A DNA stretch of 64,000 bases from Acetobacter lovaniensis. Its GTDB lineage: Bacteria; Pseudomonadota; Alphaproteobacteria; Acetobacterales; Acetobacteraceae. Location: assembly GCF_014207635.1 (NCBI RefSeq), contig NZ_JACHIE010000008.1, positions 1-64,000 of the forward strand, in the 5' to 3' direction. A model generated the notes under the pieces. It ran no database searches. It was given only the letters and a program-made list of their open reading frames with translations, and was not told where the DNA came from. This document shows, one piece after another, positions 13,205 through 51,532 of this stretch; positions within the stretch are counted from its first letter, which is position 1, and each line of letters starts with the position of its first letter. The translations under genes were made by a program, and so were the position numbers.

Positions 13205-14593
13205 ATGAAACATAAATATAATATGTTGAGCCGTAGAGTTTTTGGTTTTTCCATCATGGGATTAGGTCTTGCCTCTCATTTTGGAAAAGCCTTTGGAGAC
13301 AACGCTCCCCCTCCCGCCCCTATTCCCAAAGCTGCGTTACCCAAAGCCAACCCGGAAAAAGCGGCAAAAAAAACTGGACCACGCATTTTATGTTATGTTG
13401 GTGGCTATACACGTTCAGGCCCGGCCGAGAGTAATGCAACTGGCATAACCTTATTTGAAATGAACCAGCAGAGTGGTATCCTAACCCAACTGGGGCACGT
13501 CATCCCTGCGGATAATCCTTCTTTTCTGGCGTTCTCTCCTGACCAGAACAGCCTGTACACGGTTAATGAAATCAGTGATTTTGAAGGCGGACATACGGGA
13601 TCCGTCACGGCTTTTCAGGTCAATCGCCGTACCGGGGTGCTCACCAAGTTAAACGTCATGAGTAGTGGCGGGGCAGATCCTGCGCATTTAAGTGTGCATC
13701 CATCGGGCAAATATCTGTTTATTGCCAATTATACCGGTGGCAGTGCAGCCGTCATGCGCATTCAGGATGATGGCAGTCTGGGATTGTTGACTGATCTTGT
13801 GCACAATACCGGGCCTAAAATGCCAGAACGGGCAGCAGATAACCCTCCTGGTAATTATGCGGTGAGTGATCACTCCGGCTCTCATGTGCATATGATTCAA
13901 GCTGATGTGAACGGAAAGTTTGTTCTGGCCTGTGATGCCGGGCTGGACAGGGTTTATGTGTGGCTGTTTGATATGGAAAGCGGCACCTTGAAACCGGCAG
14001 AAAAACCCTGGTTGAGCATGGAACCGGGCTCTGCACCTCGTCATTTCTGCTTTAGCCATGACGGGAAGGTTATTTACATTCTGGGGGAACAGGATTCCCG
14101 TGTGGTTGTGGCGGATTATGATGCCAAGACAGGGGCCATGCAGGTCAAGCAAACAGCTTCAACCGTCACGGCCCAGTTTAGGGGAAGTACACTTGCCGCT
14201 GAAATTATTTTGCATCCGACAGGAAAATTTCTCTACGTTACCAACAGGTTAGGCAATGCCATTGCCTGCTTTAAAGTGCACGAAGACGGTTCGATCACTT
14301 TGTTTGATGAAGTCTGGGTACATGCTGATTACGGGCGAGCCTTAAGTTTTGATCCGTCCGGGAAGTTTGTGTTTGTTGCCAATCAGCGGAGTGATTGCAT
14401 TACATCCCTGCGGGTCAATACAGAAACAGGTGCGCTTGATTTCACCTGGCACTTTGTGCCCATTGTAAGGGGACAGACGGAATGGAACCAACAGGTGAGA
14501 CGGGATTGCGTGGGACCAGCAGGGATTACGTGGGATGAAAATTCAAGGGAAACCGCTGGTGTCGACATAATTGGCGGTTGGTGGCTCTTATGA
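13205..14593 (+). pseudogene. Lactonase-fold beta-propeller protein, interrupted by prophage (host 5' part fused to phage end)
   Basis: This encodes an exported seven-bladed propeller of the 6-phosphogluconolactonase-like lactonase family. A Tat-type signal (LSRRVFGFSIMGLGLASHF) comes first. Blade motifs include YVGGYTRSGPAESNATGITLFEMN, NPSFLAFSPDQNSLYTVNE, GADPAHLSVHPSGKYLFIANYTGGS, GSAPRHFCFSHDGKVIYI and GRALSFDPSGKFVFVANQ. Host sequence ends at 14463, within FVPI. The remaining 43 codons (VRGQTEWNQQ onward) are prophage left-end DNA read through to a chance stop at 14591. The true ending GTPTSFAFTVIDSV is found at 51533-51578. The chimera may be expressed but lacks the closing strand of the last blade, so function is doubtful. 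Confidence 0.9.
14459..14463. repeat. Left copy of the 5-bp target-site duplication (CCCAT)
   Basis: CCCAT lies directly before the prophage terminus TGTAAGG. The same five bases lie directly after the right terminus at 51528-51532. A 5-bp duplication is the normal product of Mu-type transposition. Confidence 0.93.
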
Positions 14594-14660
14594 TTATGCC
14601 GGTGAGTGGTGTCTGGAACCTGAGCGGCATTTTAGCCAAAAGGACACCAAATATGGAACC
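14464..14660. other. Prophage left end with transposase-binding-type repeats
   Basis: The terminus TGTAAGGGGA is followed by TGGAACCAACAG at 14483-14494, a variant TGGGACCAGCAG at 14511-14522 and further TGGAACC copies at 14614-14620 and 14654-14660. Two near-identical 14-mers (GGGATTRCGTGGGA) sit at 14502-14515 and 14523-14536. In Mu the left end carries three MuA sites, so these are the likely equivalents. The site roles are inferred; the repeats are seen directly. No other gene is recognised up to 14718. Confidence 0.7.
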
Positions 14661-14689
14661 CAATCTATTGAGAACCCTATTCTGAAGGG

Positions 14690-14717
14690 GGAGCTTTTAA
14701 GACCCTTTTAAAGCTCC
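14690..14717 (-). terminator. Hairpin at the end of the leftward lysogeny operon
   Basis: GGAGCTTT (14690-14697) pairs with AAAGCTCC (14710-14717), directly after the stop of the coiled-coil ORF at 14719 on the minus strand. It lacks a strong T-tract, but the position fits a terminator that keeps the lysogeny transcript from running through the phage end into the host. Confidence 0.45.
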
Positions 14718-14718
14718 A

Positions 14719-15033
14719 TTAAAGCCAGTGAAATCCTTTGGCCATCAATCCGGCCAAACCCAAAGCTACTGCAATGAGCGCACCGAAGATAACGCGAAAG
14801 TCGCGGTCATGGCGCTCATCAATCTTGTCCAGCCTCACATCCACCTTATCCAGCCGGACGTCTAGCCGATCAAAGCGTTTTTCAAGGCTTTCTAGGCGAT
14901 ATTTTATGACGTCCATGCCATCGTTTCCTCCCCCTCCTCCTTTAGCATATCTTCCTTCTTCAGACGAAAAAGATTGCAATCCGCGACGTACACGTTCGGC
15001 ATTGAGTGAAACTGTATTGTTATTAATCGTCAT
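14719..15033 (-). CDS. Small coiled-coil protein with C-terminal membrane anchor, lysogeny operon
   Basis: I do not recognise a named family. The roughly 104 residues contain a Gly-rich linker (KGGGGGNDG), then a regular coiled coil (KYRLESLEKRFDRLDVRLDKVDVRLDKIDERHDRD, heptads with Leu/Val/Ile), and finally a hydrophobic segment FGALIAVALGLAGLMAKG that could anchor the C-terminus in the inner membrane. The layout resembles XhlA-like and other small phage membrane proteins. The start MTINNN overlaps the previous stop by 11 nt; an upstream ATG at 15042 is also possible. As the last gene of the repressor operon it should be made in lysogens, so superinfection exclusion or another lysogen-specific effect is a reasonable hypothesis. 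Confidence 0.6.
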   Translation of the reverse strand: MTINNNTVSLNAERVRRGLQSFSSEEGRYAKGGGGGNDGMDVIKYRLESLEKRFDRLDVRLDKVDVRLDKIDERHDRDFRVIFGALIAVALGLAGLMAKGFHWL

Positions 15034-15259
15034 CAGATGCAATCTCTACAAGAGCATCAAGTTGTTCACTCATCACCCTTAGTTCATCCATGAAAGAATC
15101 TCTGGGGGCAAATGTAGAAAAAATACTATTATCTCTGCGTTGAATTTCCGCTTGAAGTTTTAAAACTGCACTTATTAGATCAGTTATTATTACAGACTGA
15201 GTTGACGCAAGAGCTATTAGTTTATTTATTTTAACAGTATTATTTCTATTTTCGGTCAT
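15023..15259 (-). CDS. Small hypothetical protein in the repressor operon (78 aa)
   Basis: No family is recognised. The protein is helical and acidic at its C-terminus (LDALVEIASDDD). It has a hydrophobic stretch KLIALASTQSVIITDLISAVLKL that is amphipathic rather than a clear membrane segment. Its ATG overlaps the repressor stop (ATGA at 15256-15259), so it is translationally coupled to the repressor and expressed in the lysogen. It overlaps the next gene by 11 nt. The tight coupling argues that it is real. Confidence 0.55.
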   Translation of the reverse strand: MTENRNNTVKINKLIALASTQSVIITDLISAVLKLQAEIQRRDNSIFSTFAPRDSFMDELRVMSEQLDALVEIASDDD

Positions 15260-15963
15260 GACATTGCCTGTAATCTGTAGGCTACGCGGCCTATTATTGT
15301 TATAGCGTCTCCGCCGTCTGGTTCGCCCCAGCGGAAACGGCTGATTTCTGCTTCTTGTGTGGGGTAGCGATCATTATCGGAAATTATGCGGACCGTTCCG
15401 TGCATACCGGCGGAAAGGCGTTTTACGAGCAAGGTTCCGCTAGCGACCATAACATGTATGCCATCGAGTAACTGACGGCGCTCTGTGTCTACTATCAGCT
15501 TGTCTCCGGCACGCATGGTAGGTTCCATGCTGTCCCCGCTTACCTGCAGCATGATTGTTCCTGACGGATTTAGACCGAGTTCGGAGCGCAGAAAATGGCG
15601 GGAAATGGACACTTTTTCGGGTTGCGGTGTGTCGGGGCAGGACATTCCAAAACCTGCCGAGGCTGCAACATCATAATAATCTATCAATGATGTATCATCG
15701 TTTGCTGTCCCGGAAACGGCCGCCTCAGCATCATCCGTGCCAAAAATCAGCCATTGAAGAGAGACTCCGCAGGCAAACGCTAGACGAGCTGCTGTATCTA
15801 TTCGTAGGACACGCCCCTTTAGATACTCGTTAAGAGAGCTTGGGGAGACGCCTGACCGTTTTACTATTGTGTTGTAGCCACCACCCTTATCAACAGCATC
15901 ACGAAGCCTTTCAGGGACACCAGAGACTTCCCAGTTCTTTTTTTCAGCCGGGAAATTAGACAT
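15256..15963 (-). CDS. Phage repressor, HTH plus LexA/S24-type peptidase domain
   Basis: The 235-residue repressor maintains lysogeny by blocking the rightward early promoter. Its N-terminal helix-turn-helix (about residues 14-75) includes YNTIVKRSGVSPSSLNEYLKG. The C-terminal S24 domain has the serine of SGDSMEPT (S145) and the lysine of LLVKRL (K181) as the catalytic dyad, with a candidate self-cleavage site at A103-G104 (AASAGFG). This architecture predicts RecA-stimulated autocleavage and SOS induction, unlike the Mu c repressor. An inverted repeat lies 15 nt upstream of its start (15978-16000). It is the first gene of a three-gene leftward operon. Confidence 0.92.
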   Translation of the reverse strand: MSNFPAEKKNWEVSGVPERLRDAVDKGGGYNTIVKRSGVSPSSLNEYLKGRVLRIDTAARLAFACGVSLQWLIFGTDDAEAAVSGTANDDTSLIDYYDVAASAGFGMSCPDTPQPEKVSISRHFLRSELGLNPSGTIMLQVSGDSMEPTMRAGDKLIVDTERRQLLDGIHVMVASGTLLVKRLSAGMHGTVRIISDNDRYPTQEAEISRFRWGEPDGGDAITIIGRVAYRLQAMS

Positions 15964-16187: not shown

Positions 16188-16493
16188 ATGGCACGAAAGC
16201 CATTAGGAATGCACGTGGAGGACGTAAAAGCGTCGCTCCGCAAGAAGTGGGGCAGCCTTTCTGCGTTGTCCCGCCACCTTGGGCGCAACTCCAATGCAAT
16301 TACGCAGGCACTTGCCCAACCGGGTTATTCTGTCCCGCTGGAACGCGAAATTGCCAAGCAGATTGGGCGTGAGCCTCATGAAGTGTGGCCAGATCGGTTT
16401 CATGCTGATGGAACTCCTGTCTCATTCCGTGCTGACAGAACTCCTACTGCCATGCCGTGCAGCACACACCGTCAAAATGAGGTGGCAGCATGA
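16188..16493 (+). CDS. ner: Ner-like DNA-binding transcriptional regulator
   Basis: This 101-residue protein carries the Ner/SfsB-type helix-turn-helix: VKASLRKKWGSLSALSRHLGRNSNAITQALAQPGYSVPLEREIAKQIGREPHEVWPDRF aligns along its length with Mu Ner, including the terminal E-V-I/W-P-x-R. In Mu, Ner turns down both the early and the repressor promoters during lytic growth. A strong ribosome-binding site (AGGAGG) precedes the ATG. The C-terminal tail after DRF is longer than in Mu Ner. It is the first gene of the early operon and overlaps the ParB-like gene by 4 nt. Confidence 0.9.
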   Translation: MARKPLGMHVEDVKASLRKKWGSLSALSRHLGRNSNAITQALAQPGYSVPLEREIAKQIGREPHEVWPDRFHADGTPVSFRADRTPTAMPCSTHRQNEVAA

Positions 16494-17317
16494 ACATGGT
16501 TGCACCTCAACCACTTCTGTCGGTCGTGTCTATTCCACTCGCAGATATTGACGTTGGTGAGCGCCTGCGTGGGATTGATGATGATGCTGCGGCCGTTATT
16601 GCGGCCAGTATGCAGGAACAGGGGCAGCGCACCCCCATTGAAGTAAGGAAAGTTGGCAAGCGGTATCGGCTGATTGCTGGTGCACACCGCATGCGGGCCT
16701 TGGCTCTGACGGGCATTGAAACAGCATTTGCTGTTGTGGTGAAGGCCACAGAGCTTGAAGCGAAGTTGCTGGAAATTGACGAAAATATATGCCGCCGGGA
16801 ACTGAGCCCACTCGACAGGGCAACATTTCTTGCGCGACGTAAGGAGGTTTACGAGGAACTCCACCCAGAAACGAAACACGGTGGGGACCGGAAGTCGGAT
16901 CAAGTGGACAACCTTGTCCACTTGATCCCGTCCTTTACCGAGGCAACTGCCCAGAAGCTCGGTTTGGATGCCAGAACAATTCGGCGTTCCGTTGCCCGTT
17001 ATACCAGCATTATGACGGATGTGCGGGAAAAAATTGCCAATACATGGATCGCGGCAAGTGGCGCGCAACTTGATGCATTGGCCCGTGAAACTCCCGACAT
17101 GCAGCGACAGATTGCGCAGTTTATTGCGCAGTGGCCTGCTGTGAAAAATGTCTCTGAAATCATCCGGCAGATTAAGGGGAAGCCCAAAAAATCTCCGCCG
17201 ACCATGTTGGAAAAGCTTATGGACCTTTGGGGCAAAGCTGATAGCGCCACCCGCATGCGGTTTCAGGAATACATTGCGCCGGGGCTGCCTCTGGATGATG
17301 GGAGGGAAGCCGCATGA
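16490..17317 (+). CDS. ParB/sulfiredoxin-domain DNA-binding protein
   Basis: The 275-residue protein has an N-terminal ParB/Srx nuclease-like domain: ISIPLADIDVGERLRGID, IAASMQEQGQRTPIEVRK, RYRLIAGAHRMRALALTG and ENICRRELSPLDRATFLARR correspond to ParB boxes I-III. A central helix-turn-helix region follows (ATAQKLGLDARTIRRSVARY). ParB-like proteins are common in the early region of Mu-like phages of alphaproteobacteria, with no demonstrated role. There is no ParA partner here, so plasmid-style partition is unlikely; regulation or transposition support is more likely. It is coupled by ATGA overlaps on both sides. Confidence 0.85.
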   Translation: MNMVAPQPLLSVVSIPLADIDVGERLRGIDDDAAAVIAASMQEQGQRTPIEVRKVGKRYRLIAGAHRMRALALTGIETAFAVVVKATELEAKLLEIDENICRRELSPLDRATFLARRKEVYEELHPETKHGGDRKSDQVDNLVHLIPSFTEATAQKLGLDARTIRRSVARYTSIMTDVREKIANTWIAASGAQLDALARETPDMQRQIAQFIAQWPAVKNVSEIIRQIKGKPKKSPPTMLEKLMDLWGKADSATRMRFQEYIAPGLPLDDGREAA

Positions 17318-17592
17318 ATAAGGTAGGAACTCATGCACTGGCTTCCGCTATAGGCGGCATCGTCCGGCGGGAGCGGCTCAAACGGCGCTGGACGGCCGAG
17401 CGTCTGGCTCACGAATGCGGGCACAGTGATGAGATTATAAGCAAAATCGAGCGCGGTTTACAGGGTGCTAAAATCAGCGTGCTGTTCAACATTCTTTGGG
17501 CACTCGACTGCTCTGAGGAAATCTTTCTGGAAATTGTTCGGGCTGACGCCACACTACGTCAGACGGCTGGAAGTATGGAGAGAGTGGCATGA
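17314..17592 (+). CDS. XRE-family helix-turn-helix regulator (early gene)
   Basis: The 92-residue protein is one XRE/Cro-like helix-turn-helix: IVRRERLKRRWTAERLAHECGHSDEIISKIERGLQGAKISVLFNILWALDC. The recognition helix is likely HSDEIISKIERG. It sits between the ParB-like gene and the gene before the transposase with 4-nt overlaps on both sides, so it is translated as part of the early operon. It probably modulates early transcription together with Ner. The target is unknown. Confidence 0.8.
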   Translation: MNKVGTHALASAIGGIVRRERLKRRWTAERLAHECGHSDEIISKIERGLQGAKISVLFNILWALDCSEEIFLEIVRADATLRQTAGSMERVA

Positions 17593-18044
17593 CCCGGAAG
17601 GATGAACGTCAGCTTTCTCTGCTGGACTGGACGCCACCAGAGCCGGTTGCCGCCTTTGATCCTTTTCTGATCCGGGGCAACGGGTTTGAGGCGCAGTTGG
17701 CGCGGGCCATAGCGGTATCGCTGGACGAATGCAGCCTGAGCCGTGCGGAAGTGGCAGAGCGCATGAGTGACATTCTGACGCGGCCTGTCAGCCTGAATAT
17801 GCTGAATGCTTACGCCAGCGTGCAGCGGGATGGCCACCAGATCAGTGTGCCTCGCTTTGACGCCCTTGTGGGGGCCACGCAGGACCGGCGTTTAGTGGAA
17901 TTTCTTGTTCAGCCACGCGGTTGGACAGTGATTGAGCGGCGCTTCCTGCCAATGATCGAGCTGGCAGCAGTGCGTGAACGCAAGCAGGAACTCGCTCGCA
18001 TGGAAAGCGGGTTGCGCAGGCAGATGGTGCGTGGAGGGCGGTGA
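17589..18044 (+). CDS. Early-operon hypothetical protein preceding the transposase (151 aa)
   Basis: I do not recognise a named domain. The protein is helical and begins with a short Leu/Asp-rich leader RQLSLLDWTPPEPVAAFDPF. It contains a helix-turn-helix-like stretch (CSLSRAEVAERMSDILTRPVSLNMLNAYAS) and ends with a basic helix (RERKQELARMESGLRRQM). A protein of this size directly before gene A occurs in several alphaproteobacterial Mu-like phages. The stop overlaps the transposase start by 1 nt (TGATG). A role in DNA binding or transposition control is inference from position and the helical motif. Confidence 0.65.
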   Translation: MTRKDERQLSLLDWTPPEPVAAFDPFLIRGNGFEAQLARAIAVSLDECSLSRAEVAERMSDILTRPVSLNMLNAYASVQRDGHQISVPRFDALVGATQDRRLVEFLVQPRGWTVIERRFLPMIELAAVRERKQELARMESGLRRQMVRGGR

Positions 18045-20026
18045 TGCTGAATAGTGTTCCATGGTTTTCTCCAGCCGAGTTGGCTGCAATGGCTTTACCT
18101 GGGCTTCCAGCCACAAAGCGCGGAATTAACATCCGTATTGAGGCGGAAAACTGGCTTGCCCCGGAAAATGAAGGGAAGTCATGGCGCGTTCGCAAGGGAG
18201 CGGGCGGCGGTTATGAATTTACGCCTTTTGTGCTGCCTTTGCCTGCACGCGCTGCGTTGGCTGTAAAAACGCAAGATGCCGAGGTTGTTGAACAGGATAC
18301 GGCGATGCGTGAGCGGCAGGACATCTGGACCCGCTATGATGCCTTGCCGAATAGCCTGAAAGCGCGTGCGGAAAAGGCACACCGTATTGTTATGGCTGTT
18401 GAGACCTTGGTGGATGCCGGGTGCCGAAAAAAAATGGCGGTGATGCAGATTGCCAAGATGGAGGGTGTTGGCACGACCACTATCATGAATTGGTATCGGG
18501 ACGTGCGAGGCTTAAATAAGTGTGACTGGCTGGCAGCATTGGCCCCTCACTATGCCAAGCGTGCCGAGCAGGTTGAATGCCCGACAGAGGCTTGGGATAT
18601 TCTCAAGGCCGATTACCTGCGGTTGGAAGAGCCTACCTTTACGGCTTGCATGCGTAGGCTTGAGGGGCTGGCTAAAAATCGGGGATGGCAGTTACCATCG
18701 GCTAAAACCCTCAAACGCCGCATGGATACGCTGCCCCCGGAATTGCTGACATTGTGCCGGAAAGGAGAGCAGGCTCTAAAGGTTATGTTCCCTGCCCAGA
18801 AGCGTGACCACGCCGTGTTCCATGCGCTGGAAGCGGTCAACGCGGATGGTCACAAGTTCGACGTGTTTGTGAAATGGATTGAAAACGGAAAGGAGATGAT
18901 TGTCAGGCCCGTTTTAGTCGGCTTTCAGGATATTTACAGCGGCAAGATTTTGTCCTGGCGGGTAGATGTTTCTGAAAACAAGGAGTGCGTACGTCTGGCC
19001 TTTGGTGACATGGTTGCCAAATACGGTGTTCCGAAAAAATGCTGGCTGGATAACGGGCGCAACTTTGCCAGCAAGTGGCTGACGGGCGGCGTGCAGAACC
19101 GCTACCGCTTCAAGGTACGGGAGGATGAGCCTATGGGCATTCTACCTCTTTTGGGTGTTGAAGTGCATTGGGCTACACCATACAGCGGACGCTCAAAGCC
19201 CATTGAACGGGCATGGCGTGATCTGGCTGGTGATCTGGCAAAGCCCCCGCGTTTTGCTGGGGCTTATACTGGTAATACGCCTATGGCGAAGCCGGAAAAT
19301 TACGGGTCTACAGCGGTGCCGCTGGATGTATTTCTGGAGGTAGTGTCTGAGGGTATCCGTGAGCACAATGCCCGTTTGGGACGGCGTTCAGATGTGTGTC
19401 AGGGAAAGCGCAGCTTTGATGATGTTTTCATGGAAAGCTATCAGGAGGCCGCAAATCGGGGTGCGATTACCACCGCAACGGAAGAAATGCATCGGCTTTG
19501 CCTGATGGCTGCGGAAAGCGTCACGGTGTCACGCCGGGATGGTGTGATAAATCTATCTGATAACCGCTATTTTTCGGACTTCCTGCTTCAGCATCGGGGA
19601 ACATCTGTTGTGGTCCGATTTGACCCGCAGGCTTTGCATGATGATCTGCATGTCTACCGGATTGATGGCACCTATCTGGGGGCTGCGACCTGTTTTGCCA
19701 AGGCAGGGTTTAACGACCAGCAGGCAGCACAGGCACAAAGCCGCGCATTCAAGGCATTTAGAAGGGCAACAAAAGACCTTGAGAAAGCTGAAAAGCGGGT
19801 AAACGCACATGAGCTGGCCCGCATTTATGGTGATGTGCAGACTACAGAGCCAGATTTGCCAGAAACCAAAGTTGTTCGACCACTTCGGCCAAAGTCTCCG
19901 ATAAGTCATGGCAACGCTGCCGTGGCGCATCATGATGACGAAGAAGAAGACTGGTTGACCAAGTATAACGAGCAGATGCGACCTACAGAGCGCTCCCTGC
20001 GACTTGTGGATACTGACGAAGACTAA
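18044..20026 (+). CDS. Mu-type DDE transposase (gpA)
   Basis: The 660-residue transposase catalyses integration and replicative transposition. The N-terminal Mu-type DNA-binding domain starts WFSPAELAAMALPGLPATKRGINIR. The catalytic core holds the DDE triad at D268 (AVNADGHKF), D336 (KCWLDNGRNF) and E388 (SKPIERAWRD), close to the spacing in MuA (269, 336, 392). A C-terminal domain expected to contact MuB and ClpX-type unfoldases follows. I chose ATG 18044, which has a GGAGGG ribosome-binding site; a GTG at 18041 is in frame. It should bind the TGGAACCAACAG-type repeats at both ends. Confidence 0.96.
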   Translation: MLNSVPWFSPAELAAMALPGLPATKRGINIRIEAENWLAPENEGKSWRVRKGAGGGYEFTPFVLPLPARAALAVKTQDAEVVEQDTAMRERQDIWTRYDALPNSLKARAEKAHRIVMAVETLVDAGCRKKMAVMQIAKMEGVGTTTIMNWYRDVRGLNKCDWLAALAPHYAKRAEQVECPTEAWDILKADYLRLEEPTFTACMRRLEGLAKNRGWQLPSAKTLKRRMDTLPPELLTLCRKGEQALKVMFPAQKRDHAVFHALEAVNADGHKFDVFVKWIENGKEMIVRPVLVGFQDIYSGKILSWRVDVSENKECVRLAFGDMVAKYGVPKKCWLDNGRNFASKWLTGGVQNRYRFKVREDEPMGILPLLGVEVHWATPYSGRSKPIERAWRDLAGDLAKPPRFAGAYTGNTPMAKPENYGSTAVPLDVFLEVVSEGIREHNARLGRRSDVCQGKRSFDDVFMESYQEAANRGAITTATEEMHRLCLMAAESVTVSRRDGVINLSDNRYFSDFLLQHRGTSVVVRFDPQALHDDLHVYRIDGTYLGAATCFAKAGFNDQQAAQAQSRAFKAFRRATKDLEKAEKRVNAHELARIYGDVQTTEPDLPETKVVRPLRPKSPISHGNAAVAHHDDEEEDWLTKYNEQMRPTERSLRLVDTDED

Positions 20027-20068
20027 ATTGAGCCGATAACGCTCCAGTAAACGAGGAAATTTTTGCGC

Positions 20069-24321: not shown

Positions 24322-24346
24322 AAATATGCCGTTTGAGGCATATTTT
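24322..24346 (+). terminator. Perfect 9-bp hairpin before the Mor/C gene
   Basis: AAATATGCC (24322-24330) and GGCATATTT (24337-24345) form a perfect stem with a 6-nt loop, followed by one more T. It could be an intrinsic terminator of the early transcript. Alternatively it is a dyad bound by an activator: a GATAAT box lies about 40 nt downstream, with no good -35 box, before the GTG at 24411. Confidence 0.45.
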
Positions 24347-24410
24347 AAGAGCCTCTGAAAAGGCGTTTACCGCGATAATCCTGTTGGAAAAATCTGGAAG
24401 GAAGAGAGCC

Positions 24411-38795: not shown

Positions 38796-38798
38796 TGC

Positions 38799-43768: not shown

Positions 43769-45156
43769 GCACAACAGAAACGGTAACAGTTCACGGCGGG
43801 CAACGGCCCATGGTGGTCAGGATCGCAGGGCGTGAGTTGGTGGAATATACATCTGCCGAAGTCGGGCGGGATCTAGCGGACATAGCCGGGCAGTTCCGCA
43901 TCGGTTATTTCCCCCGGTATGATCTGAAGTTGTTTGGCGACAGTTCTCCTCCTCCAATAACCAAAACAGCTCTGGCTGAAGTCTTCCACATTACCGAACA
44001 TGATCCTGTGGAAATCCTGATCCATGGGCAGACAGTTCTGAAGGGTTGGGTAGATGACGTCCAGCTCCGGCAGGAAGGCGGTAATTTTGAAGCATGGATT
44101 ACCGGCCGGGATGTAACGGGCGATCTGGTGGATGGCACAGCCAACCCGACTGGCCCTGGCGAATATCGTATGGTGACGCTGGCCAAGTTGGTGCAGACAA
44201 TCTGCACACCGTTCGGATTTACTGTGGCGGCAGATGTGGACATGGGCACACCTTTTACACTTGTGGCGCTTGAACCGGCCGAGACCGCCATGGCCGCGAT
44301 TGAACGCCATTCCCGCCAGAGAGGCATTCTGGTCACATCCGATGGCGTAGGTGGGGTGGTGCTGACAAAATCCGGGCAGACCCGTGCCCCAGACAGCCTG
44401 CGCAACCCCGGTAATGTGCATGCGATGGAAGCGCGCCTTTCCTCCCGAGGGCGGTTTTCAGACGTGTATGTTAAAGGCTCGTTTAACAGCCATTTAAGAC
44501 CCGCTAACAGCCCGTTGAAAGCTGGTGGAACACCGCTTGCTGCTCCGTTGAGTAGTGCGGGCGTGCAGTTTTCTCCAGATCAGGCGGAAGCGGCAGCAAC
44601 CCTGCGATGGGGGCACGCCATTGACCCGGATGTCAGGCGCTTCCGCCCAAGGGTTTTTTTATCCGCGACACAAAGTGGTGGGTCTGTGGCTACCCAACAG
44701 GCGGCAAATCCCGTTGACCCAAACACTGGTTCTCTGAGCCCCGCGTCCGGGGCTTATCGCGGACATGCCCGCAAGCCACATCGCAAAGCAATGAAGCCAC
44801 GCACGGATGCAAGTCCCTGGACCATGCAGGATCAGGCAGAATGGCGGATGCGCTCCACCCGCGCCGGTGCTGCGATGCGCGTATATTCAGTGATCGGGTT
44901 GCGGGCAGCCAGTGGCGCACTCTGGCTGCCTAATCAGTTGGTGCTTGTGCAGGACCACTTTGCCGGCATTGACCAGGACATGCTGATTGGTGCTGTAACA
45001 TGGGTTGCCGCACAGGATGGATACCGTACCCGCATATCTGTAGTGGACCCAGACGTTTATGATCTGACGGGGGACATGGATACGCGCCATAATGGCCTAC
45101 GCCGCACAAAGCGAGCGCGGTCCTTTGACGGCACGGCCAAGAGCCGCAAGTCATGA
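43765..45156 (+). CDS. Baseplate hub protein (Mu gpP, gp44)
   Basis: The 463-residue hub protein shows VTVHGGQRPMVVRIAGRELVEYTSAEVGRDLADIAGQFRIGYFPR, DPVEILIHGQTVLKGWVDDVQLR, AWITGRDVTGDLVDGTANPTGPGEYRMVTLAKLVQTICTPFGFTV and DQAEWRMRSTRAGAAMRVYSVIGLRAASGALWLPNQLVLVQDHFAGIDQDMLIG, the Mu P order. It forms the centre of the baseplate on which spike and tube assemble. Coupled to N and gp45 by 4-nt overlaps. Confidence 0.9.
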   Translation: MSTTETVTVHGGQRPMVVRIAGRELVEYTSAEVGRDLADIAGQFRIGYFPRYDLKLFGDSSPPPITKTALAEVFHITEHDPVEILIHGQTVLKGWVDDVQLRQEGGNFEAWITGRDVTGDLVDGTANPTGPGEYRMVTLAKLVQTICTPFGFTVAADVDMGTPFTLVALEPAETAMAAIERHSRQRGILVTSDGVGGVVLTKSGQTRAPDSLRNPGNVHAMEARLSSRGRFSDVYVKGSFNSHLRPANSPLKAGGTPLAAPLSSAGVQFSPDQAEAAATLRWGHAIDPDVRRFRPRVFLSATQSGGSVATQQAANPVDPNTGSLSPASGAYRGHARKPHRKAMKPRTDASPWTMQDQAEWRMRSTRAGAAMRVYSVIGLRAASGALWLPNQLVLVQDHFAGIDQDMLIGAVTWVAAQDGYRTRISVVDPDVYDLTGDMDTRHNGLRRTKRARSFDGTAKSRKS

Positions 45157-45710
45157 CGATGGAAAGCGACAACGCCCAGAAGCTGCGATCCCTGACCAGG
45201 CGCGCTGTTGTGCATGCGATCAATGATAATGGCGCAGGGCAGACTTTGACCGTGGAAGCCCATGCAGGCTGCCCACGTAGCAGCGTGCCGGTGCATCAGC
45301 AGTTCGGGCTGTCCTCCCGCGCGCCATTGGACGGCGCTGTTACGCATGTGGTGGCACTTGGCGGGGACGAGGCCGACCTTCTGGCTTTGCCTCCGGCCAA
45401 TCCTTCTCTGGCGCATATGGGTAATCTGGCCTCTGGCGAGACTGTTCTGTACGATGCTGTTGGACAGGCTGTTTATTTACAAGATGGCAAGTTTGTTCGT
45501 GTGCAGGCTGCCACGGAAATGACGGTTGAGATTGGCGACGTGACCGTGCTGGATCTGACCAGTAAGCTCGCCACGCTCAATGTGCCATTGCAGGTCAATG
45601 GCAGCATAACGGCCAGTCAGGATATAGTTGCCGGGACAGTAAGCGTGCAGGGCCACCTCCATGTTGGTGTGCAAAAAGGCTCTGACACGACGGGTAAGCC
45701 ACAGGCATAA
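45153..45710 (+). CDS. Baseplate assembly protein V / tail spike (Mu gp45)
   Basis: The 185-residue spike has KLRSLTRRAVVHAINDNGAGQTLTVEAHAG followed by a beta-helical C-terminus (VEIGDVTVLDLTSKLATLNVPLQVNGSITASQDIVAGTVSVQGHLHVGVQKG). The H-x-H of GHLHVG is typical of the iron-binding tip of gp45/P2 gpV spikes. It is the last gene of the second late operon; the third late promoter begins 5 nt after its stop, without an intervening terminator. Confidence 0.9.
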   Translation: MTMESDNAQKLRSLTRRAVVHAINDNGAGQTLTVEAHAGCPRSSVPVHQQFGLSSRAPLDGAVTHVVALGGDEADLLALPPANPSLAHMGNLASGETVLYDAVGQAVYLQDGKFVRVQAATEMTVEIGDVTVLDLTSKLATLNVPLQVNGSITASQDIVAGTVSVQGHLHVGVQKGSDTTGKPQA

Positions 45711-45715
45711 AATAC

Positions 45716-45740
45716 ACCCTGTTATCTGACAGTCTGCCCG
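45716..45740 (+). promoter_or_regulatory. Late promoter element, copy 3 (distal tail/modification operon)
   Basis: This copy is identical over 25 nt to the one at 24807-24831. The CTG-N8-CAG dyad is centred 45.5 nt before the ATG at 45771. GATGTT lies just upstream of that ATG. A CG alternation (CGCGCGCGCGCG) occupies the spacer. Positionally it is comparable to the Mu PP promoter, though it lies before gp46 rather than before P. Confidence 0.8.
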
Positions 45741-45770
45741 GAAAACCGCGCGCGCGCGATGTTCTGCTGC

Positions 45771-46259
45771 ATGACTTACGTGCCATACACCAACATTGCG
45801 ATCGGATGGTCCGCCGCCTTTGGCCGGTGTGACGTGCGTGTTGCTTCAAAAGGCAATGGGCGTGGGTCTGTGGTTATTGACCGCACCCCTGCCAGCACGT
45901 TCCTGATTGCCATGGGCTCGTACCGTCGTGCGCGCGCTGATGACCGCATTCCGGGCGTCCTGAATGGTGTGGCTCCCGGTGGGTTGCTGGCCAAACGGGG
46001 CTGGCCGGGGGACGGACTGCGCCGTGATGGACGGCAGACAGGTTGCCGTCTGTGGTTATTGGAAGATGCCAAGCAGACTGAAGCCACACGGCAGGCCGCG
46101 ATCCGGTATCTGGACGAAAGCATCGGGCAGATCGCAACTGACCATGGGCATAATTACTCTGTATCTGCCACATGGACCGCGCGCGGCCGGTTGCAGGCCA
46201 GCGCATCCGCGTTTGGCACTATTGTATCCACTCCGGTTGTTGTGGGGGGTGGAGCGTGA
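45771..46259 (+). CDS. Baseplate protein GP46
   Basis: The 162-residue protein matches the GP46 family: FLIAMGSYRRARADDRIP, GWPGDGLRRDGRQTGCRLWLLEDAKQTEATRQAAIRYLDESIGQIATDHG. These proteins form part of the baseplate wedge. I chose ATG 45771 rather than the in-frame ATG 45759 because it sits at the same distance from the late element as in the other two late operons. No Shine-Dalgarno sequence is present. It overlaps gp47 by 4 nt. Confidence 0.9.
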   Translation: MTYVPYTNIAIGWSAAFGRCDVRVASKGNGRGSVVIDRTPASTFLIAMGSYRRARADDRIPGVLNGVAPGGLLAKRGWPGDGLRRDGRQTGCRLWLLEDAKQTEATRQAAIRYLDESIGQIATDHGHNYSVSATWTARGRLQASASAFGTIVSTPVVVGGGA

Positions 46260-47335
46260 CACTGGTTATTCCAACACCAGATGCGTTGGCCGAGCGTTTC
46301 TGCACCTTTCTGGACGGGCGGCAGTTTACTGCGGATGACGGATCTTTGGTGACACTGGATGGGCGCGCGGCCAATACGTTCGAGAACGTGCTGGCTGCCG
46401 TGCATGCCATGGGGTTGTATGAGCTGTATCTGGCTGTGCAGCAGCTCGCCAAGGAAATGTTTATCCAGACTGCAACGATTGGCGGTCTGCTGCCCCTACA
46501 TGCGGACACATGGGGGGTACCACGTATTGGGGCGACCACTGCTGTTGGCTATGTTCTGCTGAGTGCCAGCCAGGACGTTATTGTTCCAGCCGGAACGGAG
46601 TTGACTGTGGATGGCTCCGTGCGCTGGGCAACGACATCTGCCGTGACTGTTCCGTCCGGATCAAACGGCACAGCAGTATCCGTCAGATCCGAGACGGCAG
46701 GCGCGATTGGTAATCTGGCTGCCAACACAGCCCTAACGCTCGTATCCGCTGTTGCAGGGATTACGTCCGCCAGTGCGGACGGGGCAGGCATTGCCGGTGG
46801 CGATGATATTGAAGATGTGGAGGTCTGGCGCTCTCGAATTCTGCTCCGTGTGCGCAAGCGTGCGGCAGGAGGCACTACAGCACAATATGAGGAACTGGCA
46901 GGCGATGCCGGGGCTGGATATGTGAATGTGGTGCCGGGCTGGCTGGGCAACAACATGGTGGGCATTATTGTGCTCATGCCTGGTCCGACTGTGCCAACAG
47001 AAGCACAGATTGAGACCATCCAGACCTACATCGACGGTATTCGGCCCGTGCGTGGTAATGTCACGGTAGTGGCGGGACAGATTGCAGCCCAGAACCCGAC
47101 CATATCCCTCAACCCGGATACGCAATCTGCCCGCTCGGAAGTGCAGGCCGCTGTTGCTGCCTATTATGCAGGGATTGCCATGGGTGGATGGCTTTATGTC
47201 TCTGGTTTGTCCGATGCAGTATCTGCGGTTGCAGGGGAAACCAGTCACTTTATCTCCGCCCCTACGGAAGATTTTAAGCTTGCAGCCAATCAGGTGCCGG
47301 TATTGGGTGCGATTACATGGGCAGACGTGGCATGA
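46256..47335 (+). CDS. Baseplate J-like protein (Mu gp47)
   Basis: The 359-residue wedge protein has the baseplate J domain: AKEMFIQTATIGGLLPLHADTWGVPRIGATTAVGYVLLS, VIVPAGTELTVDGSVRWATTSAVTVPSGSNGTAVSVRSETAGAIGNLAANTALTLVSAVAGI and EDVEVWRSRILLRVRKRAAGGTTAQYEELA. The start is GTG at 46256, overlapping gp46. It overlaps gp48 by 4 nt. Confidence 0.93.
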   Translation: MTLVIPTPDALAERFCTFLDGRQFTADDGSLVTLDGRAANTFENVLAAVHAMGLYELYLAVQQLAKEMFIQTATIGGLLPLHADTWGVPRIGATTAVGYVLLSASQDVIVPAGTELTVDGSVRWATTSAVTVPSGSNGTAVSVRSETAGAIGNLAANTALTLVSAVAGITSASADGAGIAGGDDIEDVEVWRSRILLRVRKRAAGGTTAQYEELAGDAGAGYVNVVPGWLGNNMVGIIVLMPGPTVPTEAQIETIQTYIDGIRPVRGNVTVVAGQIAAQNPTISLNPDTQSARSEVQAAVAAYYAGIAMGGWLYVSGLSDAVSAVAGETSHFISAPTEDFKLAANQVPVLGAITWADVA

Positions 47336-47973
47336 GCCGCACCCCCGATGAAATTTTGGCTGCCCGCCTGAATGCACTCTGCCCGGACGGGTTCGCCTGG
47401 GCAAAGGACGAAACTAGCAATGTTGCAGGATACCTGTATCCGGGTGCTGGTCTGATAGCTGACGCCGAAGCCATGCTGGAAGCCCTAAAGCTGGAGATTA
47501 ACCCCGGCACGGCAACGCTCCTGCTTTCTGATTATGAGCGGACGCTGGGGCCAGATCCATGCGGACGGGATGCACTAGCTGTAACACCTGCCCTGCGCCA
47601 GTCGCTGGCACACCAGCGCTGGGTATCTGTCGGGGACAACTCCATTCCTGCGCTGACCCAACTGGCGGCCAGTTTGGGTGTGGAAATTGAGATTGAGGAG
47701 CCATACCCGCCTGTATGCGGGACCGCGATCTGCGGTGATGCCATCTGCGGGGATGAAAACCTGCTGTGGGATTGGGTTGTCCATGTCAAATCCGGATCGG
47801 CCAATTTGGAAGCGAACGCGGCGATCTGCGGTGTGGCAGTCTGCGGTGTGTCTATCTGCGGCTCTGTTCTGACGCCCGCTATTGCGGACATTCTGCAGCG
47901 CCTCTTCTGCCCGCTCCAGCGCGAGGCACCGGCTGACACTAACCTTTACATCAAAGACCAGGAGCTTTCCTGA
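47332..47973 (+). CDS. DUF2313 tail protein (Mu gp48) with Cys-Gly repeats
   Basis: The 213-residue protein has the YmfQ/DUF2313 features LNALCPDGFAWAKDETSN, LLSDYERTLGPDPC and HQRWVSVGDNSIPALTQLAASLGVEIEIEEPYP. The usual C-G-D region is expanded: CGTAICGDAICGDENL and later AAICGVAVCGVSICGSVL give six x-C-G units. It belongs to the baseplate periphery where fibres attach. The Cys repeats may bind metal or form disulphides. Confidence 0.88.
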   Translation: MSRTPDEILAARLNALCPDGFAWAKDETSNVAGYLYPGAGLIADAEAMLEALKLEINPGTATLLLSDYERTLGPDPCGRDALAVTPALRQSLAHQRWVSVGDNSIPALTQLAASLGVEIEIEEPYPPVCGTAICGDAICGDENLLWDWVVHVKSGSANLEANAAICGVAVCGVSICGSVLTPAIADILQRLFCPLQREAPADTNLYIKDQELS

Positions 47974-49104
47974 ATGGTAGATTACACAACAACAAGCGGA
48001 TATGTGACTGATGCAAAGGGGCGTAGGCAATTCATTGACCGCAATGATGGATTGGACATACAGGGGACGTACCTGGTTGCCAAAGACAGAAATCAGGATC
48101 GCAATTCGCTTTTAGGGCCAGTTGTCGCTTCAGGACAGATCCCGGATGCTGATAATGACGACCAGCTTACGATCGCTATTCAGGCGCTGGGGAGTATTCC
48201 CCTTTGGTCACAGAGTGTGGCTGACGCGATAAAAGGTTACCCGCTGGGAACGGTTGTGCGGGATGCTACACCAAAATACTGGCGCTCAACTGCTGATAAA
48301 AACCTGACCACTCCCGGTGCTGACGGGTCTGAATGGGTGGATTTTCTGTCTGATGCGACAACGCAGGACTGGGCGAATAAACAGTTTCTGCCCTTGGTTG
48401 GCGGCAATGTCACGGGTGCAATGGACTGGGGCAGCAAAACAGTTGCCAGCACCGTTACGCATCGCTTCTGGTCTGCCGGGCCGCCTGCTGAGGGAGACGC
48501 CGCGCCCGATGCCACCCTGACCATTGCTGGCGGTACGCCCGGAACGGCCAACAAGGGCACTATGGCGCTCTCGACCGGGGTGTTTGACCTCAGTGAAACA
48601 GGGCAGGTTCTGGTCCCCAGCATCCTGATCTTTGGTGGCAAGGATGCCTTAAATGCCCTGACGGCAGAGGGCCGGTATGTCAAATCGGTTCCGGTTGCTC
48701 CGAACAAGCGCATCACCGACATCTGGGAGAATGCGGACGGGCGGCTTGTGTTCGGAGACGGTACGACTGCTCCAATTCTTGCCAGCCTGTCTGACCTGCC
48801 TCTTGATCCCGGCCAGCAGATACAGACGTTCGTCGTCTCAGGCGACAACAGCGGCATTGTCACAACCAAATTCCCGGTAGCGTTTAAGGCCGGAACGGTC
48901 CCGCGTGTTCTCCTGCGGATCAACAACGAACCCAACAGTAATGCCTGGACCCGTGTTGCGCACATCGCGCTCGACGCGAACTACAATGAAGTTATCGACA
49001 ACACGGGCTTCACTTGGGCAGCGACATATTTCACCAGCAATAGTGCTGGTAATTCCGCCGTCCAGTTTACATTGACAGTCATGGCTATTGGAGAACGACA
49101 GTGA
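47974..49104 (+). CDS. Tail fibre protein
   Basis: The 376-residue protein lies where Mu has its fibre gene. The N-terminal part (FIDRNDGLDIQGTYLVAKDRNQDRNSLLGPVVASGQIPDADNDDQLTIAIQALG) is an adhesin-type baseplate-binding region. PLVGGNVTGAMDWGSKTV is a common fibre repeat segment. The C-terminal beta-rich end (FPVAFKAGTVPRVLLRINN, ALDANYNEVIDNTGFTWAATYFT, TVMAIGERQ) is the probable receptor-binding domain. Only one fibre gene is present and no invertible segment is seen. Confidence 0.8.
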   Translation: MVDYTTTSGYVTDAKGRRQFIDRNDGLDIQGTYLVAKDRNQDRNSLLGPVVASGQIPDADNDDQLTIAIQALGSIPLWSQSVADAIKGYPLGTVVRDATPKYWRSTADKNLTTPGADGSEWVDFLSDATTQDWANKQFLPLVGGNVTGAMDWGSKTVASTVTHRFWSAGPPAEGDAAPDATLTIAGGTPGTANKGTMALSTGVFDLSETGQVLVPSILIFGGKDALNALTAEGRYVKSVPVAPNKRITDIWENADGRLVFGDGTTAPILASLSDLPLDPGQQIQTFVVSGDNSGIVTTKFPVAFKAGTVPRVLLRINNEPNSNAWTRVAHIALDANYNEVIDNTGFTWAATYFTSNSAGNSAVQFTLTVMAIGERQ

Positions 49105-49547
49105 GCATTCTGGACGATCTGAAAGCCGCGTATCCCGCACGCTACTATGCGGATATGGGGAAGCCCTGCGCGTGGTACGATATGTGGAGCTGTGCTTCCA
49201 TGGATGGTCTGCCCGCTGCCAGCACCCTGTTCGCCATGACGGCGGAGCAATGGACAGCAAAAGGGGGAAATACCGGCACCAAAAGCATGGCCGTGGAGAA
49301 TGGCGCGCTGGTCGATTACGCGCCGCCGGTCGTGGTTGTTCCACTGAAAACGCAAGCCACAACAGCGCAGGCATGGATACAGCAGCAGGCCAACCTGACC
49401 GCTGCCATGGGCGAGGTCTTTACGGCGGATATGAAGGCGTATGTGAAAGCCATCGCCGCCATAGCTAGCGGCACGGATACAACCAGCACGGCGCTGCCCG
49501 CCCAGCCTACGGATGTGATGGCAGCACCCACGGCTGCAGGGACGTGA
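49101..49547 (+). CDS. Tail fibre assembly protein
   Basis: The 148-residue protein follows the fibre gene with a 4-nt overlap (GTG start). Its end AAAMGEVFTADMKAYVKAIAAIASGTDTTSTALPAQPTDVM-like region (AYVKAIAAIASGTDTTSTALPAQP) is the common C-terminal pattern of phage tail fibre assembly chaperones. The N-terminal part (LKAAYPARYYADMGKPCAWYDMWSC) is less typical. Confidence 0.72.
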   Translation: MSILDDLKAAYPARYYADMGKPCAWYDMWSCASMDGLPAASTLFAMTAEQWTAKGGNTGTKSMAVENGALVDYAPPVVVVPLKTQATTAQAWIQQQANLTAAMGEVFTADMKAYVKAIAAIASGTDTTSTALPAQPTDVMAAPTAAGT

Positions 49548-49554
49548 AGTAAGT

Positions 49555-49977
49555 ATGAGCGTGTCACACTTCATCAGCGAGTATGGCAACCTGATCATGA
49601 CGGCCGGAGCTGGTGTGGGCGGATGGTGTGCCAATATGATGAATGGCTACCTGAAAGCGCAACGCCAGAAGTTTGATGCGGGTCAGCAGGCGCTTGCCAT
49701 ACTTGACCGAGCCTCCGAGAGAGACCGGCAAATGGATACTCTGGTGGCAACAATGACACTGCGCGTAAATGACCTCATGCTTTTGCGTTGGCGACTGGAT
49801 GACGTGATGCAGGAGGTTTACGCACAGGCGATTGCCGCGCGCATGATTATTCACGAACTGGACGCTCAGGCGCAGCGTATCCCTCGTGATTTTGCACCGT
49901 TGCCTGCATACCCGCTAGCCGCCAATAATGCCCCTCCTCTCAAAACCGAACAGCCGGAGCAGGCGCATGACGCCTGA
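49555..49977 (+). CDS. Hypothetical protein upstream of the small membrane protein (140 aa)
   Basis: No family is recognised. A weakly hydrophobic N-terminus (NLIMTAGAGVGGWCANMMNGYL) precedes a long helix (RQKFDAGQQALAILDRASERDRQMDTLVATMTLRVNDLMLLRWRLDDVMQEVYAQAIAARMIIHELDAQ). The layout of one possible N-terminal membrane segment plus a long coil is reminiscent of i-spanins. It overlaps the next small membrane ORF by 11 nt, suggesting a joint function. Confidence 0.55.
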   Translation: MSVSHFISEYGNLIMTAGAGVGGWCANMMNGYLKAQRQKFDAGQQALAILDRASERDRQMDTLVATMTLRVNDLMLLRWRLDDVMQEVYAQAIAARMIIHELDAQAQRIPRDFAPLPAYPLAANNAPPLKTEQPEQAHDA

Positions 49978-50107
49978 TAACGAGTTTTTTTTGGTTCTGG
50001 GTGGTTTCGGGGCTCTGATCGGGACTTTGATGGTTGGGGGGATACTGCTGCTGTTATCCAGACATGCAGACCCATTCCTGCAGATGAGGAACGATGATGA
50101 GGATTAG
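49967..50107 (+). CDS. Small membrane protein (46 aa), lysis-type candidate
   Basis: ATG 49967, inside the end of the preceding gene, opens TPDNEFFLVLGGFGALIGTLMVGGILLLLSRHADPFLQMRNDDED. It has one strong membrane segment (FFLVLGGFGALIGTLMVGGILLLL) and a charged tail. It overlaps the following lipoprotein gene by 11 nt. Small single-span proteins overlapped by a lipoprotein gene are the usual layout of spanin or holin sets. GGAGCAGG upstream can serve as its ribosome-binding site. Confidence 0.6.
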   Translation: MTPDNEFFLVLGGFGALIGTLMVGGILLLLSRHADPFLQMRNDDED

Positions 50108-50477
50108 CCTGTGCCTGTTGCTGCTTGTGGCTTCCTGCTCTTCCATCCCAGTTCGGGCCAAGCGGGATTTGATCGGTATGCCGCGTTCCTCATTGATCGC
50201 CTGTGCAGGCGTTCCTGATAACGTGGCTGCTTTGGATGACGGAGAGGTTCTGCAATGGCGGCAGGATCAGGCCGTGCAAGGACCATTTACCATCAAGGGA
50301 CCGTTTGGCGTTGAAGTTGACCTGTCCGGGCATGGGACGTGCCATGTGGTCGCAAGGCTTCATGGCGGGCATGTCGCTCAGGTTGAATACACCGGACCAA
50401 GCAGCACATTGCTCGGACCATATTCTGCATGCAGGCCACTGGTAGCTGCATGTGAGCGTCTGGTTTCTCGGGATTAA
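50097..50477 (+). CDS. Phage lipoprotein, BamE/SmpA-like or o-spanin candidate
   Basis: The 126-residue protein has a short lipoprotein signal (RISLCLLLLVASC, lipidated Cys14). The mature part contains LIGMPRSSLIACAGVPDNVAALDDGEVLQW, which resembles the start of the SmpA/BamE fold (G-M-x-x-x-x-L-x-x-x-G-x-P). It is longer than most o-spanins. ATG 50097 sits 7 nt after GAGGA; an adjacent ATG at 50094 is also in frame. The overlap with the membrane ORF suggests co-function at lysis or entry exclusion. Confidence 0.6.
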   Translation: MRISLCLLLLVASCSSIPVRAKRDLIGMPRSSLIACAGVPDNVAALDDGEVLQWRQDQAVQGPFTIKGPFGVEVDLSGHGTCHVVARLHGGHVAQVEYTGPSSTLLGPYSACRPLVAACERLVSRD

Positions 50478-50483
50478 AGGATA

Positions 50484-50521
50484 CCCCGCCATATCAACCG
50501 GACGCGGTTCAAGTGGCGGGG
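50484..50521 (+). other. RNA stem-loop 1 before the methylase gene
   Basis: CCCCGCCA (50484-50491) pairs with TGGCGGGG (50514-50521), and inside it AACCG (50496-50500) pairs with CGGTT (50505-50509). This two-part hairpin follows the lipoprotein stop. It has no T-tract and could terminate, attenuate or regulate the methylase message. Confidence 0.5.
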
Positions 50522-50573
50522 GCTAGGCTGCTCTAACAGCCAAGCCGGGTGCATCAACACCCACGGATAACCG

Positions 50574-50601
50574 CCCCGCCCACCGCTGCGCAGCGGCGGG
50601 G
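50574..50601 (+). other. RNA stem-loop 2 before the methylase gene
   Basis: CCGCT (50583-50587) pairs with AGCGG (50592-50596) around a GCGC loop, and CCCCG (50574-50578) pairs with CGGGG (50597-50601) across a small bulge. It ends 21 nt before the methylase ATG and could block or position ribosomes. Confidence 0.45.
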
Positions 50602-50622
50602 TCTGTATGGAATAAAACCCCA

Positions 50623-51420
50623 ATGGAGTCGAATCTAAGGCCAATTCAGCCGGTCAAACCTGTCGCCCCGTACCTAGGGGGCAAGTTGCGCCTGGCATCC
50701 CGCATCATAGGAAAAATGCGTGCTATCCCGCACTCTGCCTACGTTGAACCATTCGTTGGTATGGGTGGTGTGTTCCTACGTCGGGATTTTTATGTTGAGT
50801 GCGAGGTCATTAATGACCTGAACCGTGACGTGGCGAATCTGTTCCGTATTCTGCGATGGCACTACGTTCCTTTGATGGACATTCTGCGTTGGCAGATCAC
50901 CACACGAGACGACTTCCAGAGACTGACCTCGGCTGCACCAGATACCCTGACGGATTTACACCGCGCAGCGCGCTTCCTTTACCTGCAACGCACTGCGTTT
51001 GGTGGGAAGATTAGCGGGCAGAACTTCGGGGTATCTTTAAGACGGGCTCGTTTTGACGTGCAGCAATTGGGGAGCATGCTGGAAGACGTTCATGCGCGCC
51101 TGTGCCGCGTGGTGGTGGAATGCCTACCATGGCAGGAAGTGTTGCGACGCTATGATAGTGACAACACCCTGTTTTATCTGGACCCGCCGTATTGGGGATG
51201 TGAGCGGGATTATAATGCCCCGTTCTCTCGGGATCAGTTCATTGAAATGGCTGACCACCTGTCACAGATCAAAGGGCGCTTCATTCTGTCGTTGAATGAC
51301 CGGCCTGAAGTGAGAGAAGTGTTTGCCGCCTTCGATATTGAAGCGGTGACGGTCAACTACTCGGTGAGTTCCAAATCAACCGGACGAGGAACGCGTGGGG
51401 AGGTTTTAATCAGCAATTAA
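50623..51420 (+). CDS. DNA adenine (N6) methyltransferase, Dam/D12 class
   Basis: The 265-residue methylase has the D12-class motifs: APYLGGKLRLASRIIGKM, EPFVGMGGVFLRR (SAM-binding F-x-G-x-G), NDLNRDVANLFRIL and the catalytic TLFYLDPPYWGC (D-P-P-Y). It would methylate adenine in DNA, probably protecting phage DNA from host restriction. It lies where Mu carries the mom modification gene, at the right end. No Shine-Dalgarno sequence precedes ATG 50623, the only in-frame start downstream of the TAG at 50524-50526. Two hairpins lie just upstream. Confidence 0.92.
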   Translation: MESNLRPIQPVKPVAPYLGGKLRLASRIIGKMRAIPHSAYVEPFVGMGGVFLRRDFYVECEVINDLNRDVANLFRILRWHYVPLMDILRWQITTRDDFQRLTSAAPDTLTDLHRAARFLYLQRTAFGGKISGQNFGVSLRRARFDVQQLGSMLEDVHARLCRVVVECLPWQEVLRRYDSDNTLFYLDPPYWGCERDYNAPFSRDQFIEMADHLSQIKGRFILSLNDRPEVREVFAAFDIEAVTVNYSVSSKSTGRGTRGEVLISN

Positions 51421-51446
51421 AGGGCATTTTAGGGAGCCTTTATTGA

Positions 51447-51477
51447 CCATTTTCCCGGCATCGGGGAAATGGTTTTT
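51447..51477 (+). terminator. Intrinsic terminator at the prophage right end
   Basis: CCATTTTCCC (51447-51456) pairs with GGGGAAATGG (51463-51472) with one G-U pair and a 6-nt loop, followed by TTTTT. It ends the third late transcript about 50 nt before the prophage end. Confidence 0.85.
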
Positions 51478-51478
51478 A

Positions 51479-51527
51479 GGGTTCCAAATTATGTGGCTGT
51501 TGGTTCCAAATCATTCGGCCCGCTACA
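51479..51527. other. Prophage right end with transposase-binding-type repeats
   Basis: On the minus strand from 51527 the end reads TGTAGCGGGC, then TGGAACCAACAG (plus-strand 51497-51508) exactly 19 nt inside as on the left end, and a second TTTGGAACCC copy at 51479-51488. Two sites at the right end parallel Mu R1 and R2. Confidence 0.75.
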
Positions 51528-51532
51528 CCCAT
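51528..51532. repeat. Right copy of the 5-bp target-site duplication (CCCAT)
   Basis: CCCAT directly follows the right terminus ...GCTACA and equals the pentamer at 14459-14463. Confidence 0.93.

Follow-up and report, generated by a model that had tools for sequence, protein, structure and literature searches.

The stretch analysed here, the first 64,000 nucleotides of contig NZ_JACHIE010000008.1 of Acetobacter lovaniensis (the window), contains a lactonase gene of family PF10282 that is split by a 37,064-bp element (14464-51527) with genes for a MuA-like transposase, a MuB-like ATPase, a LexA-type repressor, and head and contractile tail proteins (Table 1). A preliminary description of this DNA had proposed a Mu-like prophage whose ends could be fixed to the base, and the size and terminal anatomy that it gave were confirmed. 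CCCAT stands at both junctions, the prophage starts with TGTA and finishes with TACA, and the left junction passes from host sequence (CACTTTGTGCCCAT) directly into phage sequence (TGTAAGGGGACAGACGGAATGGAACCAACAGG), just as the right junction passes from phage (CTGTTGGTTCCAAATCATTCGGCCCGCTACA, the prophage terminating in CCCGCTACA) into host (CCCATTGGAACACC). These are the 5'-TG...CA-3' ends and the 5-bp target duplication of Mu-like transposable phages.

Related elements place the ends at the same bases. DNA similarity to A. cibinongensis 4H-1 (L065), to an Acetobacter metagenome-assembled genome (L066) and to an IMG/VR contig (L070) begins exactly at 14464, and four genomes together supply five right ends (G044, G042 on two contigs, G030 and G004) where similarity stops exactly at 51527, the 20 bases outside being different at each of the five. 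The flanking 12-20 bases differ among the sites seen, indicating insertion at many sites. Constant in the relatives' ends are TGTAAGGGGAC on the left, TGTAGCG(G/A)GCC on the right, TGGAAC at base 20 and a second TGGAAC at base 42 of the right end. The TGGAAC-type repeats, at bases 20, 48 and 68 of the left end (TGGAAC, TGGGAC and TGGGAT) and 20 and 42 of the right, are retained in relatives and are putative binding sites for the MuA-like transposase. The 12-mer TGGAACCAACAG, which had been described as lying 19 nt from each end, does begin at base 20 counted from either end of the window's element; it is absent from the three left and five right ends of the relatives, where TGGAAC alone is kept, and was therefore rejected as a diagnostic site.

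The interrupted gene provides a separate view of the junction. Joining the host flanks restores, as had been claimed, a lactonase frame of 434 codons that ends FVPI-GTPTSFAFTVIDSV-stop, while the allele in the window keeps residues 1-420 and has its last 14 swapped for 42 phage-encoded residues, giving a 462-codon frame. The joined protein has matches in 42 of the genus's 49 genomes (that of the window counted). A joined query of 500 bases gives alignments of 496-503 columns at seven loci (L023-L028 and L040; 78-88% identity), shorter parts aligning with more distant loci. At all seven the lactonase is uninterrupted at the junction in the DNA alignment, although L040 carries stops nearer the N-terminus and L028 is cut by its contig. 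The expectation that relatives would end in GTPTSFAFTVIDSV held to the letter at three loci (L023, L024 and L026); at the other four (L025, L027, L028 and L040) the 14-residue end lies in the same place with two or three residues different, as expected of homologues. The gene is the sole PF10282 match in the genome, which encodes one SGL-type (PF08450) protein elsewhere, and the insertion yields a natural variant of this only PF10282 lactonase. The periplasmic gluconolactonase PpgL (6igb) is among the relatives of solved structure, and the parted segment aligns with the last residues of its chain; loss of the last 14 residues may harm the lactonase fold.

We scanned 48 proteins against PHROGs and 17 of these against Pfam, the latter together with two further small frames, the split lactonase and seven host neighbours. 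Each named phage gene is an open frame, some of the family matches spanning only part of the profile. The transposase matches phrog_310 (E 3.3e-153), with DDE_2, HTH_Tnp_Mu_1, HTH_Tnp_Mu_2 and Mu-transpos_C above the Pfam cut-offs, and alignment of its residues 91-595 to the Mu transposase in 4fcy (E 1.7e-111) pairs D, D and E of the two proteins; we take these to be the catalytic acidic triad. The S24 domain of the repressor suggests SOS control, and an Ala-Gly site and Ser and Lys residues seem discernible by eye in this protein. The name Ner for the phrog_769 protein is our assumption from its position. The genes from the terminases to the baseplate read as a Mu-type head and contractile tail operon.

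Table 1. The split lactonase gene and the prophage within it (window positions)
Feature	Position	Strand	Basis or remark
Host lactonase (PF10282), left part	13205-14463	+	Residue 420 completed by next T
CCCAT, left copy of target duplication	14459-14463		Sequence; fits Mu target motif NYSRN
Left end: TGTAAGGGGAC and TGGAAC-type repeats	14464-14540	+	Start shared with three relatives
Small protein, phrog_20262	14719-15042	-	PHROGs
CI/LexA-type repressor, HTH and Peptidase S24	15256-15963	-	PHROGs, Pfam
Ner-like regulator, phrog_769 'transcriptional repressor'	16188-16493	+	PHROGs
ParB-like protein, phrog_3264	16490-17317	+	PHROGs
Two small transcription regulators (17314-17592, 17589-18044)	17314-18044	+	PHROGs
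MuA-like DDE transposase	18041-20026	+	PHROGs, Pfam, structure-sequence alignment
MuB-like AAA ATPase with Phage-MuB_C domain, beside transposase	20063-21052	+	phrog_296 (E 1.6e-82); Pfam
Protein weakly matching host-nuclease-inhibitor family phrog_1518	21861-22169	+	PHROGs
DUF3164 protein	22166-22789	+	PHROGs, Pfam
GemA	23094-23540	+	PHROGs, Pfam
phrog_421 protein	23482-24225	+	PHROGs
Mor/C-like late activator, phrog_836	24333-24800	+	PHROGs; Pfam Mor below cut-off
Endolysin, GH108 and peptidoglycan-binding domain	24863-25567	+	PHROGs, Pfam
Terminase small subunit, phrog_426	26679-27350	+	PHROGs
Terminase large subunit	27337-28914	+	PHROGs, Pfam
Portal	29490-31256	+	PHROGs; open frame from TTG, likelier start ATG 29538
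Minor head protein (31222-32547); tail completion/Neck1 (32680-33198)	31222-33198	+	PHROGs
Head protease (33413-34432); virion structural protein (34392-34868); major head protein (34882-35835)	33413-35835	+	PHROGs
Head-tail connectors and small tail genes	36108-37320	+	PHROGs
Contractile tail sheath (37317-38795); tube (38799-39170, weak match)	37317-39170	+	PHROGs
Probable tail chaperone (39167-39610), conserved -1-frame extension to 39762	39167-39762	+	By position; phrog_25559; frameshift predicted
Tape measure, baseplate hub and wedge genes	39768-47973	+	PHROGs
Probable tail fibre	47974-49104	+	By position; weak PHROGs match to family of no assigned function
D12-class (Dam-type) adenine methyltransferase	50623-51420	+	PHROGs, Pfam
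Right end: TGTAGCGGGCC inverted; TGGAAC at 20 and 42 from end (22-bp spacing)	51480-51527	-	End shared with five right ends of relatives
CCCAT, right copy of target duplication	51528-51532		Sequence
Host lactonase, last 14 codons and stop	51534-51578	+	51533 completes codon 420

Other members of this group carry target duplications of their own. Two complete relatives have both ends in one contig, one of 39,315 bp (G101 C251 39183-78497) with the duplication GCCCT and one of 38,766 bp (G177 C4 45635-84400) with CCCTG; the right end of the second begins TGTC, so that only TG is invariant at the ends. A much shorter element of 4,364 bp (G030:C233:45677-50040, from L115 17678 to L116 2041) has both conserved Mu-type ends and the duplication GCGTG; its DNA similarity to the window is confined to the two termini, the repressor end, and the genes for the Ner-like and ParB-like proteins. 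The search of the genus with the window's transposase gave no match in this genome, and the element may be a natural mini-Mu or an internal deletion. In G042 a left end on C11 (L066 6218) and a right end on C12 (L086 428) both have CTGGC outside them; they probably belong to a single prophage divided by assembly and were counted as one insertion site. The consensus NYSRN, given for Mu-like 5-bp duplications in part of a published report (PMC12486242), fits 6 of 12 sites, a duplication being presumed where one end only was seen, compared with 13.4% of 5-mers in the host part of the window (binomial tail 0.003). G010 C26 was considered as a further complete relative, but its two end stretches, when searched, showed no TGTA...TACA pair flanked by a 5-bp repeat. 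One IMG/VR contig (L109) stops at the right end and hence has no flank.

We are highly confident that the element is a Mu-like transposable prophage of this Acetobacter strain, lying at CCCAT and splitting the only PF10282 lactonase of the genome. The anatomy is observed; the reaction would, by analogy with the family, be one in which the transposition proteins inserted the prophage into CCCAT, duplicated those five bases and so separated the last 14 residues from the lactonase. The S24-type repressor, encoded divergently from the Ner-like gene, would then keep the prophage silent until DNA damage releases it, whereupon it could replicate by transposition, the Mor/C-like activator would turn on the head and tail genes, and headfull packaging and cell lysis would follow. 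The element is probably complete. The earlier statement that all core genes look intact holds for the head, tail and transposition genes of the Mu-like set, as open frames; the Ner-like, GemA and Mor-like genes are open frames too. Several points weigh against our interpretation: Gam is doubtful, because the protein concerned matches phrog_1518 weakly (E 2.1e-5) and has no Pfam match; neither mom nor a DNA invertase (gin) family was seen among the 48 proteins scanned against PHROGs; of the four elements whose two ends share a contig, NYSRN fits only that of the window; and, as regards activity, the element is known here from its sequence alone.

This last point and the weak match of Gam, together with several small genes that have no family match, would also suit the best surviving alternative, a defective Mu-like remnant unable to transpose or form particles despite its open frames. 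We consider it doubtful, since the transposase, MuB, terminase, portal, major head, sheath, tape measure and baseplate genes are all open with family matches, and the two ends agree with those conserved among relatives. A site-specific (integrase) prophage, or an island with coincidental Mu-like genes, is very improbable. Integration of that kind occurs in the genus, temperate phage phiAP1 of Acetobacter pasteurianus entering a tRNA-Ser gene by means of an integrase (described in part of PMC8566455), but no tyrosine or serine integrase family was found among the 48 proteins in the PHROGs scan, the 5-bp duplication lies within a protein gene, the flanks of the relatives differ, and the duplications of the window's element and of those in G101, G177 C4 and G030 speak against it. 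Least probable of all, and rejected, is the idea that the CCCAT copies and terminal repeats arose by chance and that the true ends lie elsewhere: three pairs of TGTA and TACA separated by 30-45 kb and flanked by a 5-bp repeat do occur in the window, but the terminal 40 bases of the 14464/51527 pair agree in register at 22 positions (longest run 12) against 13 and 8 (runs of 5 and 4) for the other two, the similarity of relatives breaks exactly at these two bases, and the lactonase homologues are continuous across the junction.

Comparison with phage Mu shows what the Acetobacter element has in common with it and where the two differ. With the general features of Mu taken as background (its transposase was compared directly), the two share MuA/MuB transposition, Ner, GemA, a Mor-type activator, the order of the head and contractile tail genes, TG...CA ends, the 5-bp duplication and a size near 37 kb. 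The Acetobacter element differs in its S24/LexA-type repressor, a ParB-like gene in the early region, its TGGAAC-type end repeats, the lack of a mom or DNA invertase match and a D12 methyltransferase at the right end. A search for an invertible segment at the tail end detected no exact 14-mer inverted repeat in 47000-51527.

Among known phages the transposase is best matched, by rank, in Pelagibaca vB_PeaS-P1, Ochrobactrum POA1180 and Rhodovulum vB_RhkS_P1 (41-42% identical over 93-94%), with 43.8% identity over 89% in the Microcystis phage Mwe-Yong1; the Rhodovulum and Pelagibaca phages also give the top major-head matches (37-40%). The names of these alphaproteobacterial transposable phages presumably mark them as siphoviruses, whereas the Acetobacter element has a tail sheath, for which Klebsiella and Bordetella phages are the best among the matches listed (32-33%). 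No near-mode DNA match to any part of the element was present in 50,697 phage records, and a distant-mode search with one 7.9-kb stretch gave 24 records, the best 8 of which match roughly 2% of that stretch. Citromicrobium Mu-like phages phiA-phiC, which have another host, resemble the element by description only, in 5-bp duplications with the NYSRN consensus (part of PMC12486242). For acetic acid bacteria, a partial prophage with Mu-like FluMu genes is mentioned in Acetobacter pomorum (an excerpt of PMC5722065), and the Mu terms sought were not found in the main texts of two prophage surveys, one of acetic acid bacteria and one of Acetobacter (PMC8566455, PMC9379143).

Closer relatives lie within the genus. 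Of its 49 genomes, 9 have transposase matches with E values no higher than 1.9e-91, some cut or broken (G000, which is the window's own, G001, G005, G007, G010, G035, G037, G042 and G044), and seven others have weak matches only. No second copy was seen in the window's own genome, which gave one transposase match and one match of the left 937 bases. A. cibinongensis 4H-1 (G005, NZ_BAMV01000009.1) has a transposase 88% identical and the left end in common; G044 has a transposase 46% identical, the right end in common and DNA pieces 68-86% identical between 19862 and 38206. Both of these prophage stretches differ from the window's in that their contigs stop within the element, and their flanks are different.

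The element itself is already in IMG/VR, as a provirus record of 33,790 bp (IMGVR_UViG_2861688124_000003, L069) that is 100% identical over the 13,836 bases compared, from 16188; it is novel as a phage relative and otherwise of an ordinary Mu-like kind, leaving the understanding of Mu-like phages unchanged. The exact ends reveal what this automated record omits. It starts exactly at the start codon of the Ner-like gene, 1.7 kb inside the true left end, and so lacks the repressor and the left end; if collinear, it would finish at 49977, without the methyltransferase and the right end. Exact ends also allow other copies to be found by their ends. For fermentation stability it is relevant that an acetic acid bacterium carries a phage that may be inducible.

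A search by ends was made with the right-end pattern, at up to three mismatches, in 397 genomes of the family. It gave 14 matches in 12 genomes, while a backward control pattern gave six matches in six genomes, so that three-mismatch matches are weak. Four matches have at most one mismatch (G000, G004, G101 and G177 C29), two of these genomes (G101 and G177) belonging to another genus of the family. The ten with three mismatches are G177 C4, two in G323, and G001, G003, G028, G075, G084, G129 and G290; the first three were looked into, and in G177 C4 a left end and phage genes confirmed the match. The two G323 copies of a sequence like the right end (G323:C1:1121766 and 1678474; 641 bp, 96% mutual identity) lack homologues of the transposase, MuB, head and sheath proteins within the 40 kb taken at each and were dropped from the count of sites, although their five bases would fit NYSRN.

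The 4,364-bp G030 element invites a wider proposal, to which we attach a low probability: acetic acid bacteria may host a family of Mu-like phages, inducible by DNA damage through a LexA-type repressor, that leave natural 'mini-Mu' derivatives. With both ends, its own duplication, and repressor, Ner-like and ParB-like genes, the G030 element could act as a satellite of the complete phage, being mobilised in trans and also conferring immunity.

Further observations concern the tail chaperone and the right end. The chaperone frame stops at 39610; the -1 frame continues to 39762, and G044 has it at 88% identity. Of eight loci compared, four match at 1e-5 (L092, L117, L118 and L120, of which L118 and L120 are nearly identical), and these retain both a W-P-x-x-W stretch and the run ATTTTTAC or CTTTTTAC. 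A scan for classical slippery heptamers did not flag this spot (39587-39762), and we predict a probable -1 frameshift at 39587-39594. The prophage methyltransferase gene is 68% identical to a stretch elsewhere in the same genome (G000:C5:199153-199794, L085). Just within the right end, 51444-51477 shows matches of 32-33 bases at 88-91% identity to G000:C5:173699 and C12:28521; the sequence in common may be a terminator hairpin.

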